From: Acinetobacter celticus
Lineage (GTDB): Bacteria > Pseudomonadota > Gammaproteobacteria > Pseudomonadales > Moraxellaceae
Length of the DNA: 64,000 bases
Assembly: GCF_001707755.1 (NCBI RefSeq)
Contig: NZ_MBDL01000009.1
Location: forward strand, 186,001 to 250,000
Reading direction: 5' to 3'
Below the pieces are notes generated by a model. That model saw only the letters and a list, made by a program, of their open reading frames with translations, was not told the origin of the DNA and did no database searches. Both the position numbers and the translations under genes were made by a program. How positions within the stretch are numbered: position 1 is the first letter of the stretch; each line of letters starts with the position of its first letter. Below, piece after piece: positions 40,208 to 51,933 of the stretch.

Positions 40208-40993
40208 ATGCTATTTCCACAATTAAAATTCCAAGAATTTCTACATCCACGCCCAAAACCCAAAGGTATTGACGTGCAATGTAAACTGCAACATTTTGCA
40301 CTCATTACCTATGCCATTGACCCAATACGCTTTAAAGACCTTATTCCAGAGCGCTTTCAATTAGACACGATTCACTATCAAGGTGAAGAAAAAGCGCTGA
40401 TGTCAGTCGTGCCATTTATTGATGTCGATTTTACCTCTGCGGTGTTTCCCTTTCCAAAATTTACAATGGGACAAACCAATTACCGTGTCTATGTGATTGA
40501 TCAAGAAATAAAAGAACGATGTGTTTGGTTTATCGGCACGACTTTAGATTCATGGACGCTGATTGTACCTCGTTATTTTTGGCAATTGCCTTGGCATGCT
40601 GCTGTTTTTGAATTTGACTGCCAACAGGATGAGTACGGTTTGTACAAACAATATAAAATGCGCACGGAGTCCGAATGGGCCAATGCCGAATTGCACTTAA
40701 ACCAATCTACAGAAGATACTTGGAAATATGAAGGCTTCCCCGATTTAGAAAGCTATCAGGTTTTTTTAACCCATCCCCTAGCTGGTTTTTATCATCGCAG
40801 AGATGGAAAATTAGGAAGCTATCGCGTCTGGCATGACCGTTTAAAACCTCAACCTGCAAAACTACAGCACGCACGTTTTGAGCTTTTAGAACGTCTCAAT
40901 TTAGTGTCGTTTGAAGATCAGCTCAACCCTTATAGCGTACTAATTGAACCGATGAATGAGTTTACAATTTACCTTCCACCCCAAACATTCTAA
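40208..40993 (+). CDS. DUF2071 family protein
   Basis: A 261-residue soluble protein. CKLQHFALITYAIDPIRFK, VVPFIDVDFTSAVFPFPKF, NYRVYVIDQEI and the middle segment IVPRYFWQLPWHAA fit DUF2071 (YqjF-like), a member of the acetoacetate-decarboxylase-like fold. The function is unknown. The conserved Arg (TNYRVYV) and the aromatic-rich pocket are the most constant parts. The gene is monocistronic, with fpr's terminator upstream and a promoter/operator for a separate transcript downstream. Confidence 0.7.
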   Translation: MLFPQLKFQEFLHPRPKPKGIDVQCKLQHFALITYAIDPIRFKDLIPERFQLDTIHYQGEEKALMSVVPFIDVDFTSAVFPFPKFTMGQTNYRVYVIDQEIKERCVWFIGTTLDSWTLIVPRYFWQLPWHAAVFEFDCQQDEYGLYKQYKMRTESEWANAELHLNQSTEDTWKYEGFPDLESYQVFLTHPLAGFYHRRDGKLGSYRVWHDRLKPQPAKLQHARFELLERLNLVSFEDQLNPYSVLIEPMNEFTIYLPPQTF

Positions 40994-41039: not shown

Positions 41040-41091
41040 TTGCCTTTTAGAATAACTCGTCTATAATTCAACAAAACAGACAGGTCTGTCT
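41040..41091 (+). promoter_or_regulatory. Promoter with palindromic TetR-type operator
   Basis: TTGCCT (41040-41045) and a perfect TATAAT (41062-41067) form a promoter with 16-bp spacing. AGACAGGTCTGTCT (41078-41091), arms AGACAG/CTGTCT, lies right at the expected transcript start. This is the geometry of repressor control. Confidence 0.6.
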
Positions 41092-41263
41092 ATTTTTTTT
41101 GCTGAAAACCGAATGAACTTAAACATTCAGAGGGTAAAAACAAACATAAGAAGAAGCACTAAGCTTCTCAAATCTTATCTTCAAAGTTGGCACAATTTTG
41201 AAGATAAGAAATATAAGTCTTTATCAGCAAAGCGCGATTAACCTAAAGTTATCGCGCTTTTTT
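41074..41263 (+). ncRNA. Candidate repressor-controlled small RNA with three hairpins
   Basis: A transcript of about 190 bases is expected from the promoter at 41040-41067. It contains a stem AGAAGC/GCTTCT (41152-41168), a perfect 13-bp stem (41173-41185 with 41197-41209, 11-base loop), and a terminator (41229-41241 with 41248-41260, one bulge) ending in a T-run. The only ORF is 42 codons (41113-41241), basic, without a ribosome site and with its stop inside the terminator. It may be a small RNA, or the leader and tail left by deletion of a repressed gene. Confidence 0.45.
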
Positions 41264-41332
41264 ATTGCCTATTATTTTAGATCAATGAATTAATCACTCA
41301 TCTTCATATACACAGATTAATCTCAAATCAAA

Positions 41333-41899
41333 TTATATGATCGCCAACTCTAACTGAATTAAAGTTTCTACTCGTTTCCAATAACTTTCTAAGCACACTT
41401 GATTTGGATCAATTTGAGCTTGAATAGTCATACCATCAAGAATACTGGACAAGAAAATAGCCAATTGCTCTACTTGCTTTACCCCTAAATGCATTAATGA
41501 ATTACATAATTGGGTTTTTAACCACTCTTTATAATCAATAGCAGGCTGAAGGGATGAAGGGTAAACTTTTGAAATTTCTTCTACCGCTTTTTGAAACATA
41601 CAACCATTAAAATCTGTTGTATGAAACCATGCGCCATACCATAAAAAAATTGCTTTAATCTGACTGAGATAATTTTGAGGGTTACATGTAGCAATTGCCG
41701 CACCTAATGACTGTTGTATGTGATTATTTCGAGTCACTAAACATTCCTCAATGAGTTTCGCTTTCGATGGGAAATATTTATAAAAAGTCATTTTTGCAAC
41801 ACCAGATTCGCTAATAATCCGATCAATACCAACTGAATTATAACTATACGTATTGAAGAGATTTAATGCTGTATTAAGTATTTTCTCTTTTTTTGACAT
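41333..41899 (-). CDS. TetR-family transcriptional regulator
   Basis: A 188-residue repressor. The N-terminal helix-turn-helix is SVGIDRIISESGVAKMTFYK followed by YFPSKAKLIEECL. This YKYFPSK subgroup often binds palindromes of the TAGAC...GTCTA type, such as NemR-like repressors. The C-terminal ligand domain has GCMFQKAVEEI, with cysteines that could sense electrophiles. The palindrome AGACAGGTCTGTCT at 41078 lies 240 bases past its 3' end and is its most likely site. It is convergent with the candidate small RNA. The ligand is unknown. Confidence 0.85.
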   Translation of the reverse strand: MSKKEKILNTALNLFNTYSYNSVGIDRIISESGVAKMTFYKYFPSKAKLIEECLVTRNNHIQQSLGAAIATCNPQNYLSQIKAIFLWYGAWFHTTDFNGCMFQKAVEEISKVYPSSLQPAIDYKEWLKTQLCNSLMHLGVKQVEQLAIFLSSILDGMTIQAQIDPNQVCLESYWKRVETLIQLELAII

Positions 41900-42137: not shown

Positions 42138-42980
42138 ATGAATACGCTCTCCTTTACCCAATCTGAACACACTCGCGTAGAATCGTTGCATTTTATTCAA
42201 AACTCTATGCCTGCAAATGTATGGAATAAAAATATCAGTGTTATCAATCAATTCGAAAAACAAACGATAAATCACCCACTATTTAATCACCCCATCTTGG
42301 CGCGTTTACATCAAGGCCAACTTACACTTACACACCTAAAATTGATTCATATCAATTATTTTACAGCCATTGTTAAAAATTTTACTGATGCACTTAGTAT
42401 GGCTATTTATCAAGCCAATGCACTTGAGCAACATCAATCGATTCATCAAGAAAAGCGTATTGCATCTAAAATTTATGCACGATACTTACTTTCTCTCAAT
42501 TTAATTGATGAGCTGGGTTTTAACACTCATGACCTTACACAAAGTTCACCGTCAAAATCGCATTTGGTTTATTTTTTAAAATTGATGCAAACCCTGCACT
42601 TAGACCCTCTCGATCAGAAAGAGACTGAAATAGAAGCCCTCTCGCTCACGCAATTTATTCAAAATCATATGCACTCATATGCAGATTTATTGCTTATATT
42701 GGCATGTACTGAACTTCAGGTGATCAAATTCAGCCAAGCACTACGACAAAATATTTCTATTTATAACAGCGAATTCACTGAAGGCTATTATGCTTGTCAT
42801 GGCATAGCCCAAAAAAACAACCTTGGTCTTGCAAATGATGACAACCATGAAGATGATATCTGGTTACTACTCACCCAATGCTATACCCCAGAAAATGAGT
42901 CACATTTTCAGCGTATACACACTGAGTATTTAGAATTATGGGATAATTTTTGGAGCAAAATGAATCAATTAACCACTTAA
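42138..42980 (+). CDS. Heme-oxygenase-fold (iron-containing redox enzyme family) protein
   Basis: A 280-residue helical protein. NHPLFNHPILARLHQGQLT then HLKLIHINYFTAIVKNFTDA resembles the first helices of TenA/PqqC/CADD-like proteins. LNLIDELGFNTHDL and the last helix GLANDDNHEDDIWLL match the acidic/His motifs that bind two irons in heme-oxygenase-like oxidases (HDOs). Exact ligand assignment is uncertain from sequence alone. HDOs catalyse N-oxygenation, C-C cleavage or para-aminobenzoate formation. The gene stands alone between a TetR gene and a cation transporter, with no recognisable cofactor or biosynthetic partner. The substrate is unknown. Confidence 0.55.
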   Translation: MNTLSFTQSEHTRVESLHFIQNSMPANVWNKNISVINQFEKQTINHPLFNHPILARLHQGQLTLTHLKLIHINYFTAIVKNFTDALSMAIYQANALEQHQSIHQEKRIASKIYARYLLSLNLIDELGFNTHDLTQSSPSKSHLVYFLKLMQTLHLDPLDQKETEIEALSLTQFIQNHMHSYADLLLILACTELQVIKFSQALRQNISIYNSEFTEGYYACHGIAQKNNLGLANDDNHEDDIWLLLTQCYTPENESHFQRIHTEYLELWDNFWSKMNQLTT

Positions 42981-43113: not shown

Positions 43114-43749
43114 TTACTGACAAACCTCATTTTCTGCCACATATGCTTTGCGCTCTTGTAATGATTTTTTCATTACTTGATAGCCACCTGTTAGACCTAA
43201 AGTAGCCATAATAAATGCCACAATCAGATCGGGGAACATACTCCCTGTACCAAATACGCCAATGGCTGCAAATATCACTGCAACATTACCAATAGCATCA
43301 TTACGACTACACAGCCAAACAGACTGCATATTTGAATCGCCATCTCTAAAGGTATATAAAACAACCGCCGATGCCACATTTGCGATTAAAGCCAAAACGC
43401 CAATTGCCCCCATGGTCATGGCTTCTGGCGGTATACCTTGCATATAGGCATAAATAACTTTACCAATGACCACGAAACCAAATAGAGCCATAACTGTCCC
43501 TTTGACCAATGCAACTGTTGCACGCCAATAAAGACCAGCACCCAACACGGCCAAAGACACAGCATAATTTACAGAGTCACCAAAGAAATCCAGTGAATCT
43601 GCCCATAATGCAGATGAATGTGCATAAGCACCACCAATGAGTTCAACTAAAAACATCGCTAGATTGATAAAAAGTGCAATCCAGAGTGCTGTTCTAAATT
43701 TACTGTCTTTCTTGATTGGTGCAGGTTCATGACTACAACTACAAGCCAT
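43114..43749 (-). CDS. Cation diffusion facilitator-type metal efflux protein
   Basis: A 211-residue inner-membrane protein with about six helices. HSSALWADSLDFFGDSVNYAVSL carries the DxxxD-like metal site of helix 2. SRNDAIGNVAVIFAAIG in helix 5 carries the paired Asn/Asp. The N-terminus is CSCSHEP and the C-terminus NEVCQ. The protein lacks the long C-terminal cytoplasmic domain of CzcD, so it belongs to the short CDF group often coupled to MerR regulators. A MerR gene is divergent. Zinc, cadmium or cobalt are likely substrates. Confidence 0.82.
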   Translation of the reverse strand: MACSCSHEPAPIKKDSKFRTALWIALFINLAMFLVELIGGAYAHSSALWADSLDFFGDSVNYAVSLAVLGAGLYWRATVALVKGTVMALFGFVVIGKVIYAYMQGIPPEAMTMGAIGVLALIANVASAVVLYTFRDGDSNMQSVWLCSRNDAIGNVAVIFAAIGVFGTGSMFPDLIVAFIMATLGLTGGYQVMKKSLQERKAYVAENEVCQ

Positions 43750-43787
43750 CGCATACCTCTTGTTTATAATTTAAACTGTATTAGACT

Positions 43788-43818
43788 ATTTAAAACTATG
43801 GTCTAACTCCAAGGTCAA
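43788..43818 (-). promoter_or_regulatory. MerR-type promoter of the cation transporter
   Basis: On the minus strand TTGACC (43818-43813) and TTAAAT (43793-43788) are 19 bp apart. This stretched spacer is typical of MerR-activated promoters. TTAGACCATAG lies within the spacer. Confidence 0.5.
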
Positions 43819-43821
43819 GAC

Positions 43822-44238
43822 ATGCAACAATATTTAATTGGCGATCTAGCCAAAAAAACACAACTGAGCACAGATTCAATCCGTTTTTATGAAAAAAAGC
43901 AGCTTATTAAACCGAGCTTTCGTGCAGATAATAATTATAAATATTACGATGAAGACACCTTAAAACGACTGATTTTTATTAAACGTTGCCGTGCATTAGA
44001 GATTTCTTTGCATGAAATTACAGAATTAATTGCCTTAACCAAACAGCCCAAGCAAGATTGTTTGATTGTTGATCATTTAATTGAGGAGCACATTCGACAA
44101 GTTGAAGAAAAACTCAACGAACTACAAAAATTTAAAATACAATTGCAGGAGTTACGTCAGTCATGCAACTCAAATACTACTGTAGATCACTGTAATATAT
44201 TAAAAAATTTAGAAATGAACACAAATAAATCAGACTAA
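43822..44238 (+). CDS. MerR-family metal-responsive regulator
   Basis: A 138-residue regulator. The winged helix begins YLIGDLAKKTQLSTDSIRFYE and KKQLIKPSFR, the MerR signature. The dimerisation helix (about 80-112) is EEHIRQVEEKLNELQKFK. Cysteines at KQDCLIVD, LRQSCNSN and DHCNILK match the metal site of the CadR/PbrR/ZntR group, where the first Cys comes from the dimer partner. It should activate the divergent transporter gene when zinc, cadmium or lead is in excess. The exact metal cannot be set from sequence. Confidence 0.88.
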   Translation: MQQYLIGDLAKKTQLSTDSIRFYEKKQLIKPSFRADNNYKYYDEDTLKRLIFIKRCRALEISLHEITELIALTKQPKQDCLIVDHLIEEHIRQVEEKLNELQKFKIQLQELRQSCNSNTTVDHCNILKNLEMNTNKSD

Positions 44239-51421: not shown

Positions 51422-51826
51422 CTATAAATAGTCGCCTTCACGTTCTGGCTGATACAACACTTTTTCAATTTTAACTTTCATTGTATGCCCATCTGGTTGT
51501 GGCCATTCAATTTCTTGACCTTCAGCCAGACCTAAAATTGCGGCACCCACTGGTGCAAGAATGTTCACCTGCCCTTTATCACCACGGAAATCATGTGGAT
51601 AAACCAAAGTAATTTCAGTCGGCTCAATTGCAGGTGCAATCGTAACCAATACCTTGGCATTCATACTGACCACATTCACAGGCACATCTTTCGGTGCCAC
51701 AATTTGCGCACGTGCCAGTTCATCTTCTAAATGTTCCATAGTCGGCGTTAACTTAGACTGATGCTCTAACATCGTTTCCAAGCGGCGCAAATCCTGTTCA
51801 GAAAGAATGATACTTGGTTTTGTCAT
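51422..51826 (-). CDS. rnk: Nucleoside diphosphate kinase regulator Rnk
   Basis: A 134-residue GreA-related protein. The short N-terminal coiled coil (about 1-45: PSIILSEQDLRRLETMLEHQ) lacks the GreA tip. The C-terminal FKBP-like domain has VVSMNAKVLVTIA, TLVYPHDFRGDKGQVNIL and APVGAAILGLAEGQEIEW, all close to E. coli Rnk. It binds RNA polymerase near the secondary channel. GreA is excluded by length and by the missing acidic tip. It is monocistronic. Confidence 0.9.
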   Translation of the reverse strand: MTKPSIILSEQDLRRLETMLEHQSKLTPTMEHLEDELARAQIVAPKDVPVNVVSMNAKVLVTIAPAIEPTEITLVYPHDFRGDKGQVNILAPVGAAILGLAEGQEIEWPQPDGHTMKVKIEKVLYQPEREGDYL

Positions 51827-51933
51827 ATCGTTTAATCCTTGGTAACTTGGTTAAATTAAATCAATTCGGTCGATTTATTCTTGTTATTACAGATTATTCT
51901 GTTATATCAGAATTTCGTCATATTGAATAATGT

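Follow-up and report, generated by a model that had tools for sequence, protein, structure and literature searches.

Positions 41075-41265 of the window, meaning the entire 64,000-nucleotide stretch of DNA that was analyzed, are best read (with a probability of about 0.75) as a structured regulatory non-coding RNA of ~190 nt that is repressed by a TetR-family protein through the operator ACAGA-N4-TCTGT and that probably depends on Hfq and acts in trans. Part of this reading is carried by comparison with related genomes, which supports, at the level of sequence, a selected RNA structure, a conserved promoter-operator layout, co-inheritance of the RNA with the TetR gene and the absence of any conserved open reading frame (ORF). 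The other parts, namely transcription, binding by this particular TetR, repression, a ligand, Hfq and action in trans, are inferred.

The features of the locus are collected in Table 1. The original prediction had described a promoter (TTGCCT, 16 bp, TATAAT), an operator-like palindrome at the start point, three hairpins including a perfect 13-bp stem, a T-run terminator and a convergent TetR gene ~70 bases further on. The promoter, the palindrome (41076-41091, with a conserved core at 41076-41089), the terminator and all three hairpins were found again, the layout of the promoter being kept in relatives, and the TetR ORF, on the minus strand, lies 69 bases past 41263. The supposedly perfect 13-bp stem turned out to have 17-nt arms with one mismatch, and the P1 helix, which closes the RNA beside the terminator, had been missed.

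Table 1. Window coordinates of the predicted RNA, its control elements and the adjacent genes
Feature	Position	Strand	Basis
Promoter: -35 TTGCCT at 41040-41045, 16-base spacer, -10 TATAAT at 41062-41067	41040-41067	+	Sequence and layout in 76 relatives
Predicted structured RNA, about 190 nt	41075-41265	+	Fold z -7.17; covariation; own-genome model match 41075-41265
Putative operator ACAGA-CAGG-TCTGT	41076-41089	.	Arm conservation in relatives; no binding data
P1, 5' arm of closing helix	41098-41105	+	8 bp with 41224-41231; GCTG in every window-clade row; unscored for covariation
P2 hairpin	41111-41128	+	41111-41115/41124-41128; 1 of 5 pairs doubly changed; pairing in 95% of cells
CAGAGGGTA motif, largely unpaired, possible seed	41128-41136	+	Invariant CAGAGGGT in 12 window-clade rows
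AUAAGAAG stretch, A-R-N-like, possible Hfq site	41146-41153	+	Read in alignments; Hfq role inferred
P3 hairpin	41152-41168	+	41152-41157/41163-41168; 5 of 7 pairs doubly changed
P4 long stem	41173-41209	+	41173-41189/41193-41209; 17-nt arms, 94% complementary; 12 of 13 pairs doubly changed
Intrinsic terminator, stem 41229-41238/41251-41260 then T-run	41229-41266	+	Sequence, hairpin search, alignment
TetR-family regulator, 188 aa, proposed operator binder	41333-41899	-	Pfam TetR_N E 1.7e-12; orthologues in 79/175 genomes; no binding data
Haem-oxygenase/TenA-like protein, divergent from TetR, dispensable to the module	42138-42980	+	TENA_THI-4 20.6 bits vs cut-off 22

The predicted RNA folds with a z-score of -7.17, and none of 200 shuffled sequences was equally stable. 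Within the window clade (12 sequences), 22 of 44 pairs are changed on both sides compared with 12.2 in shuffles, a value reached by 0/500, and 58 cells are doubly changed compared with 19.5 in shuffles (again 0/500), a count that falls to 11-19 once the pairs are slid. A lack of covariation in the long stem had been named in the original prediction as a ground for refutation; P4 is the stem in which nearly every pair is changed on both sides, and the small-RNA reading stands unrefuted. The second clade (18 sequences used) has a different fold in which 4 of 20 pairs are doubly changed, with 7 such cells vs 1.2, and the count of extra pair types, one of five measures, was matched by 18/500 shuffles. 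The structures were derived from the same alignments that were used to test them, so the covariation result is somewhat favoured. In other clades, individual sequences fold less strongly (z -4.4 for L015, -3.1 for L091 and -2.1 for L116), and an alignment mixing the clades (A2) recovered only the palindrome and the terminator. The terminator is missing from the terminator-scan list, its loop exceeding the length rule of that scan. Measured from operator to terminator, RNAs of the window clade span about 190-210 nt, those of the tandoii group 216-241 nt, of the haemolyticus group 135-145 nt, of the ursingii group 260-281 nt and of the calcoaceticus-baumannii group 134-143 nt. Judged by comparison of the aligned relatives, the RNA structure is under selection.

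A promoter scan of the window performed at chance level (7 observed vs 7.3 expected), and the promoter therefore has to be judged by its conservation. Across 76 relatives the -10 element reads TATAAT in 63, TACAAT in 7, TATACT in 4 and TAGAAT in 2, the end of the -10 lies 8-11 bases ahead of ACAGA in 70 of them, and the best -35 spacer is 16 in 54. ACAGA-N4-TCTGT is the portion of the full palindrome that is kept in these relatives, with arms of ACAGA/TCTGT in 72/76 and ACAGA/TATGT in 4/76. The pairs formed by the arms are invariant in the window clade (5/5) and the second clade (6/6), which is the behaviour expected for a DNA site. If transcription starts 7-8 bases past the -10, as is inferred, the operator would occupy about +2 to +15. 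Repressor sites commonly sit at about +2, and it is by inference that TetR is assigned repression and not activation at this operator. The general pattern ACAGA-N4-T(C/A)TGT was arrived at after inspection of the very loci that were later counted. In 59 named loci (the orthologues among the best 80 of 218 TetR relatives) no operator copy was found near the start of tetR, save for an off-pattern match at -476 in L102, and the best operator-like site at tetR's own promoter in the window has 4/10 mismatches. Autoregulation is frequent among TetR proteins and not universal.

The distribution of the RNA was followed by nucleotide, protein, pattern and covariance-model searches. Searching 175 Acinetobacter genomes with the element gave matches in 28, and in 11 genomes, including the window's own, these cover most of the element with 70-100% identity, while a twelfth genome (G103) matches in two pieces. 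On reading, 7 further genomes hold the entire element in diverged form and G099 a shortened one, while L023 was judged not to be an element. In all 20 loci examined with wide flanks, the window's included, the next gene past the terminator is the convergent TetR gene, one copy of which is broken. A TetR protein scan of named genomes returned 218 relatives, the best 80 of which all come from Acinetobacter and were sorted into 59 orthologous loci and 21 paralogues with 49-53% identity. Among these best 80 of 218, the operator pattern lies past TetR in 58/59 orthologous loci, L087 being a contig end, and in 0/21 paralogue loci. Many of the named genomes recur among the 175, and for this reason counts from the two sets should not be added.

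Within the 175 genomes, a TetR orthologue is present in 79 (broken in one), and in 76 of the 79 the promoter-operator-terminator unit lies convergent beyond it. At L195 (G142) the contig ends 192 bases beyond TetR, where the RNA model still matches, and a different contig of this genome carries an operator with TATAAT at its edge. L220 (G019) has the RNA (model E 2e-6) without a recognizable operator, and its TetR differs in the N-terminal region. At L056 (G099) the TetR gene carries a stop and a frame change, the RNA lacks P4 and one operator half-site is altered. An exact search for TATAAT, 7-13 bases and ACAGA-N4-TMTGT found 67 places in 65 genomes, compared with 6 in the reversed control, 62 of them at the TetR site and 5 elsewhere. 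The exact -10 with operator is thus present in 63/79 genomes with TetR vs 2/96 without it (G023 and G174). The covariance model of the window clade (R2) produced 31 matches across 29 genomes, of which 24 lie at the TetR site and 7 elsewhere, each of the latter being rejected on reading. The second-clade model gave 35 matches in 35 genomes, 35/35 at the TetR site, including six from clades outside its training (E 1.6e-4 to 0.009). Because these matches include training sequences, stricter filters were used in both scans and 20/79 TetR genomes are matched by neither model, the absence of model matches from the 96 genomes lacking TetR carries less weight than the exact search. Matches to the TetR protein at E 1e-45 are confined to Acinetobacter among 348 genomes representing 16 genera of the family. 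As read from this pattern of inheritance, the RNA and the convergent TetR gene are one module. The TetR-repressed small RNA that had been suggested is borne out in so far as RNA, operator and TetR are co-inherited; binding and repression by TetR remain inference.

The order of genes in the window is trmO, fpr, DUF2071, RNA, tetR and haem-oxygenase-like. In 58 named loci (1.5 kb flanks; best 80 of 218), fpr lies upstream of the RNA in 8, DUF2071 in 6 and other genes in 44, and past TetR there is a haem-oxygenase-like gene in 22, a ROXA-like gene in 10, CzcD in 4 and other genes in 22. In G006, presumably A. baumannii, an SDF-family symporter gene and a ROXA-like gene flank the RNA-tetR pair, and A. 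baylyi carries the module at locus L085. The RNA-TetR pair is constant while the flanking genes vary. The protein encoded at 42138-42980 is 31% identical to Haem_oxygenas_2-like neighbours of TetR paralogues (two compared). The DUF2071 gene (window 40208-40993) precedes the RNA in some species and lies past TetR and the haem-oxygenase-like gene in others, and is thus mobile around the fixed pair. Divergent ORFs at window 43114-44238 resemble a CzcD-type cation transporter and a MerR-type regulator, as read from the ORFs only, and these two stay near the module in the wide-flank loci.

The original prediction had found no convincing ORF in the transcript and had left room for a promoter and tail surviving the deletion of a repressed gene. 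Such a remnant, or alternatively a gene for a small protein, would accommodate the 42-codon frame present in the window, and a transcript has not been shown. The 42-codon frame is not conserved, no conserved ORF was found between operator and terminator in relatives, where even the longest frames are short and show no relation from one species to the next, and alignment of the 76 relatives having the unit, suggested at the outset as a way to expose an intact intervening gene, exposed none. Together with the covarying stems, these results uphold the absence of an ORF, contradict the deleted-gene scenario and leave both the remnant and the small-protein reading barely tenable. A riboswitch, attenuator or leader was also rejected, since there is no same-strand gene downstream and the next gene, tetR, is convergent in 20/20 loci. 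No Rfam family matched at its gathering score in the window or in six loci. The L20_leader family (RF00558) gave a sub-threshold match in the window (40.3 bits, E 9.8e-7, against a gathering score of 58.7), and such matches occurred in 4 of 9 sequences scanned (the window, L011, L005 and L010). The likeness lies in the succession of a small hairpin, a long hairpin and a terminator. The RNA differs in remaining below the gathering score and in having no same-strand gene before the convergent tetR, and identity with L20_leader was rejected on these grounds.

In the proposed mechanism, TetR would occupy ACAGA-N4-TCTGT over the first bases of the transcript and thereby block transcription. A ligand, the identity of which is unknown, would free TetR from the RNA promoter so that the RNA could be made, ending at its own intrinsic terminator. 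The RNA would then probably pair in trans with mRNAs via unpaired segments, held by Hfq through A-R-N stretches and the U tail. The A-R-N rule for Hfq binding is taken from the accessible part of its source (PMC4104026), and it is the A-R-N stretches (AUAAGAAG) and the U tail that suggest Hfq here, its binding being inferred. The candidate seed CAGAGGGTA is missing from the calcoaceticus-baumannii group, A. baylyi and A. soli, so the pairing regions may differ between clades. The 9-base complement of CAGAGGGTA occurs at 36 places in 4 genomes, 4 of them within the RNA itself, and inspection of 26 of the 32 non-self sites in these genomes revealed no shared target gene.

Two further readings accept the RNA and assign its neighbour another role. 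The RNA may be real without TetR being its repressor: TetR could be an activator, another protein could sit on the palindrome, or the palindrome could be a 5' RNA hairpin, with TetR linked in some other way, for example through a shared two-way terminator. The palindrome does lie inside the predicted transcript and does fold as a 5' hairpin, yet its arms are invariant while the other helices vary freely, and the TATGT arm found in 4/76 loci disrupts the RNA pairing. TetR-operator binding data are absent, and the TetR paralogues have a common DNA-binding region, so a paralogue could bind the operator in some species; the window's genome, however, has no HTH paralogue of TetR at E 1e-8 (the one match is the linked TetR) and carries the operator nonetheless. 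G019 keeps the RNA without a recognizable operator, whereas across the genomes the operator with its -10 follows the presence of TetR in the proportions given above. An RNA that does not have TetR as its repressor is regarded as unlikely, although this reading retains some weight.

Alternatively, the RNA could work mainly in cis, as an antisense or feedback element on the convergent tetR mRNA. Its strict convergence with and proximity to tetR would suit such a role, as would the arrangement in G006, where the terminator nearly abuts the tetR stop. In the window, however, the RNA stops about 70 bases short of tetR, and antisense read-through alone would leave the covarying hairpins unexplained. 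Complementarity between the RNA and the tetR start region is also unsystematic, with a mean z of -0.38 in 56 loci and single loci reaching -3.9, in a crude test that ignores folding. A mainly cis-acting RNA is considered quite improbable, and a TetR-repressed RNA acting in trans remains the preferred reading.

Further copies of the operator were sought as possible additional targets. ACAGA-N4-TCTGT occurs at 4 places in the window's genome vs 3 in the control: at the RNA, at C3:47529, at window 51889-51902 and at C10:412329. At C3:47529 the match is a hairpin that comes after an ORF and precedes a stretch of T's, and no TATAAT precedes the match at window 51889-51902. With up to two mismatches there is no excess (10 and 14 places vs 12 and 10 in the reversed control), and the sole other place with one mismatch falls within an ORF read as a copper-oxidase gene. 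The 23 loci inspected in other genomes comprised 2 RNA sites, 12 sites within ORFs and 9 intergenic sites without a nearby TATAAT. In A. seifertii (L167, G085) one further exact -10 with operator follows a ureidoglycolate lyase gene, looks like the terminator of that gene and was rejected. A single operator target is firm for the window's genome only, at high stringency. In the calcoaceticus-baumannii group, loose matches number 6, 6, 8 and 8 vs 2, 1, 2 and 2 in the reversed control, per strand, and this excess makes additional targets possible there.

Several of the loose matches are recorded here as separate observations. The one at window 51889-51902 (ACAGATTATTCTGT) precedes an Rnk/GreA-type gene of the minus strand (51422-51826) by 63 bases. 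Two others, ACAGATAGTTCTGT and ACAGAATAGTCTGT, recur in G176, G177, G182 and G006, and two in G006 (L337 and L339) are intergenic. Loci L269 and L270 (G145 and G146), in genomes without a TetR orthologue, contain a similar-looking intergenic unit consisting of TCAGCGAAGCG and then a terminator, which may be a further small RNA whose 3' end resembles that of the present one.

The TetR paralogues may connect the module with colony switching in A. baumannii. In the 7 of 21 TetR paralogues that were inspected, the DNA-binding N-terminal region is all but identical to that of the TetR beside the RNA; in G006, three paralogues are 73-80% identical over 56-59 N-terminal residues, and the others are at most 56% identical. 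Haem-oxygenase-like genes, just under the Pfam cut-off, lie divergent beside paralogues in L310, L315, L311 and L314. According to the available portion of PMC9802203, A. baumannii AB5075 has 11 TetR regulators (TTTRs) with very similar HTH regions, any one of which turns cells translucent when overexpressed. The same portion reports that all three regulators studied by RNA-seq lower haem-oxygenase-like genes, among others, that autoregulation was unseen for three regulators and that cross-regulation was small, with two exceptions. Neither in the divergent promoters next to paralogues nor in that of the window was a good operator copy found (best 3-4/10 mismatches, six regions), and the regulators might therefore converge on the RNA promoter. 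This leads to a hypothesis that is offered tentatively and is much more apt to fail than to hold, identity with the proteins of that study, whose family mark is an HTH region very like that of ABUW_1645, not being established: the RNA promoter may be a common binding site of TetR paralogues with near-identical HTHs, the opaque-to-translucent regulators included, each responding to its own signal with the RNA as the shared direct output. If true, it would explain how the same colony switch arises from different regulators that, with few exceptions, ignore each other, and a shared operator would provide a concrete common target for redundant regulators of an Acinetobacter phenotypic switch.

Two side observations concern the paralogue loci. 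Ten TetR paralogue copies (~50% identity) from ten species are full-length apart from one in-frame stop (TAA, TAG or TGA), for example G094:C1:2933965-2934525, G140:C1:1269953-1270513 and G031:C13:64044-64604; these may represent either repeated inactivation or some switching form. At L313:1674-2943 (G006), a haem-oxygenase-like frame beside a TetR paralogue runs into an IstB/IS21-type ORF, and the gene looks interrupted by a mobile element.

TetR proteins are known mostly as repressors of protein genes, and the sole conserved target found for the TetR described here is a small RNA. Roughly half of the searched Acinetobacter genomes have the pair, which is inherited, moved and degraded as a unit. 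Within it the small RNA is rebuilt fast, ranging from about 134 to 281 nt with differing hairpins, while promoter, operator and partner are unchanged. With the operator, the RNA family and the partner gene all defined, the circuit is open to direct testing, including in A. baylyi, a laboratory species that has it.

An RNA family with a dedicated TetR seems undescribed, while the kind of element, a repressor-controlled small RNA, is already known. In Vibrio, one circuit joins the TetR-type regulators LuxR/HapR with the Qrr small RNAs, whose expression depends on LuxO and sigma-54 and which pair with the mRNA of the regulator. The resemblance lies in a TetR-type regulator and a small RNA being tied in one circuit; the present RNA differs in its sigma-70-like promoter, its one start-point operator and the lack of any sign of pairing with tetR. 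In the literature as far as it was accessible, nothing was found on this RNA or its link to TetR, and the A. baumannii copy may stand in published small-RNA lists. Aar, AbsR and Art are likewise chromosomal small RNAs of Acinetobacter (PMC5320573, PMC3976366 and PMC11472050), as is proposed here, and in the parts of these papers that were available a link to TetR was not seen for any of them. The small RNA SrvS, which derives from a plasmid aadB leader and acts on TTTR expression according to the available portion of PMC9802203, resembles the present case in that TetR-type regulators with very similar HTHs and a small RNA take part in one switch, with haem-oxygenase-like genes involved. Compared with SrvS as described there, the RNA proposed here is chromosomal, has its own promoter and adjoins its TetR.
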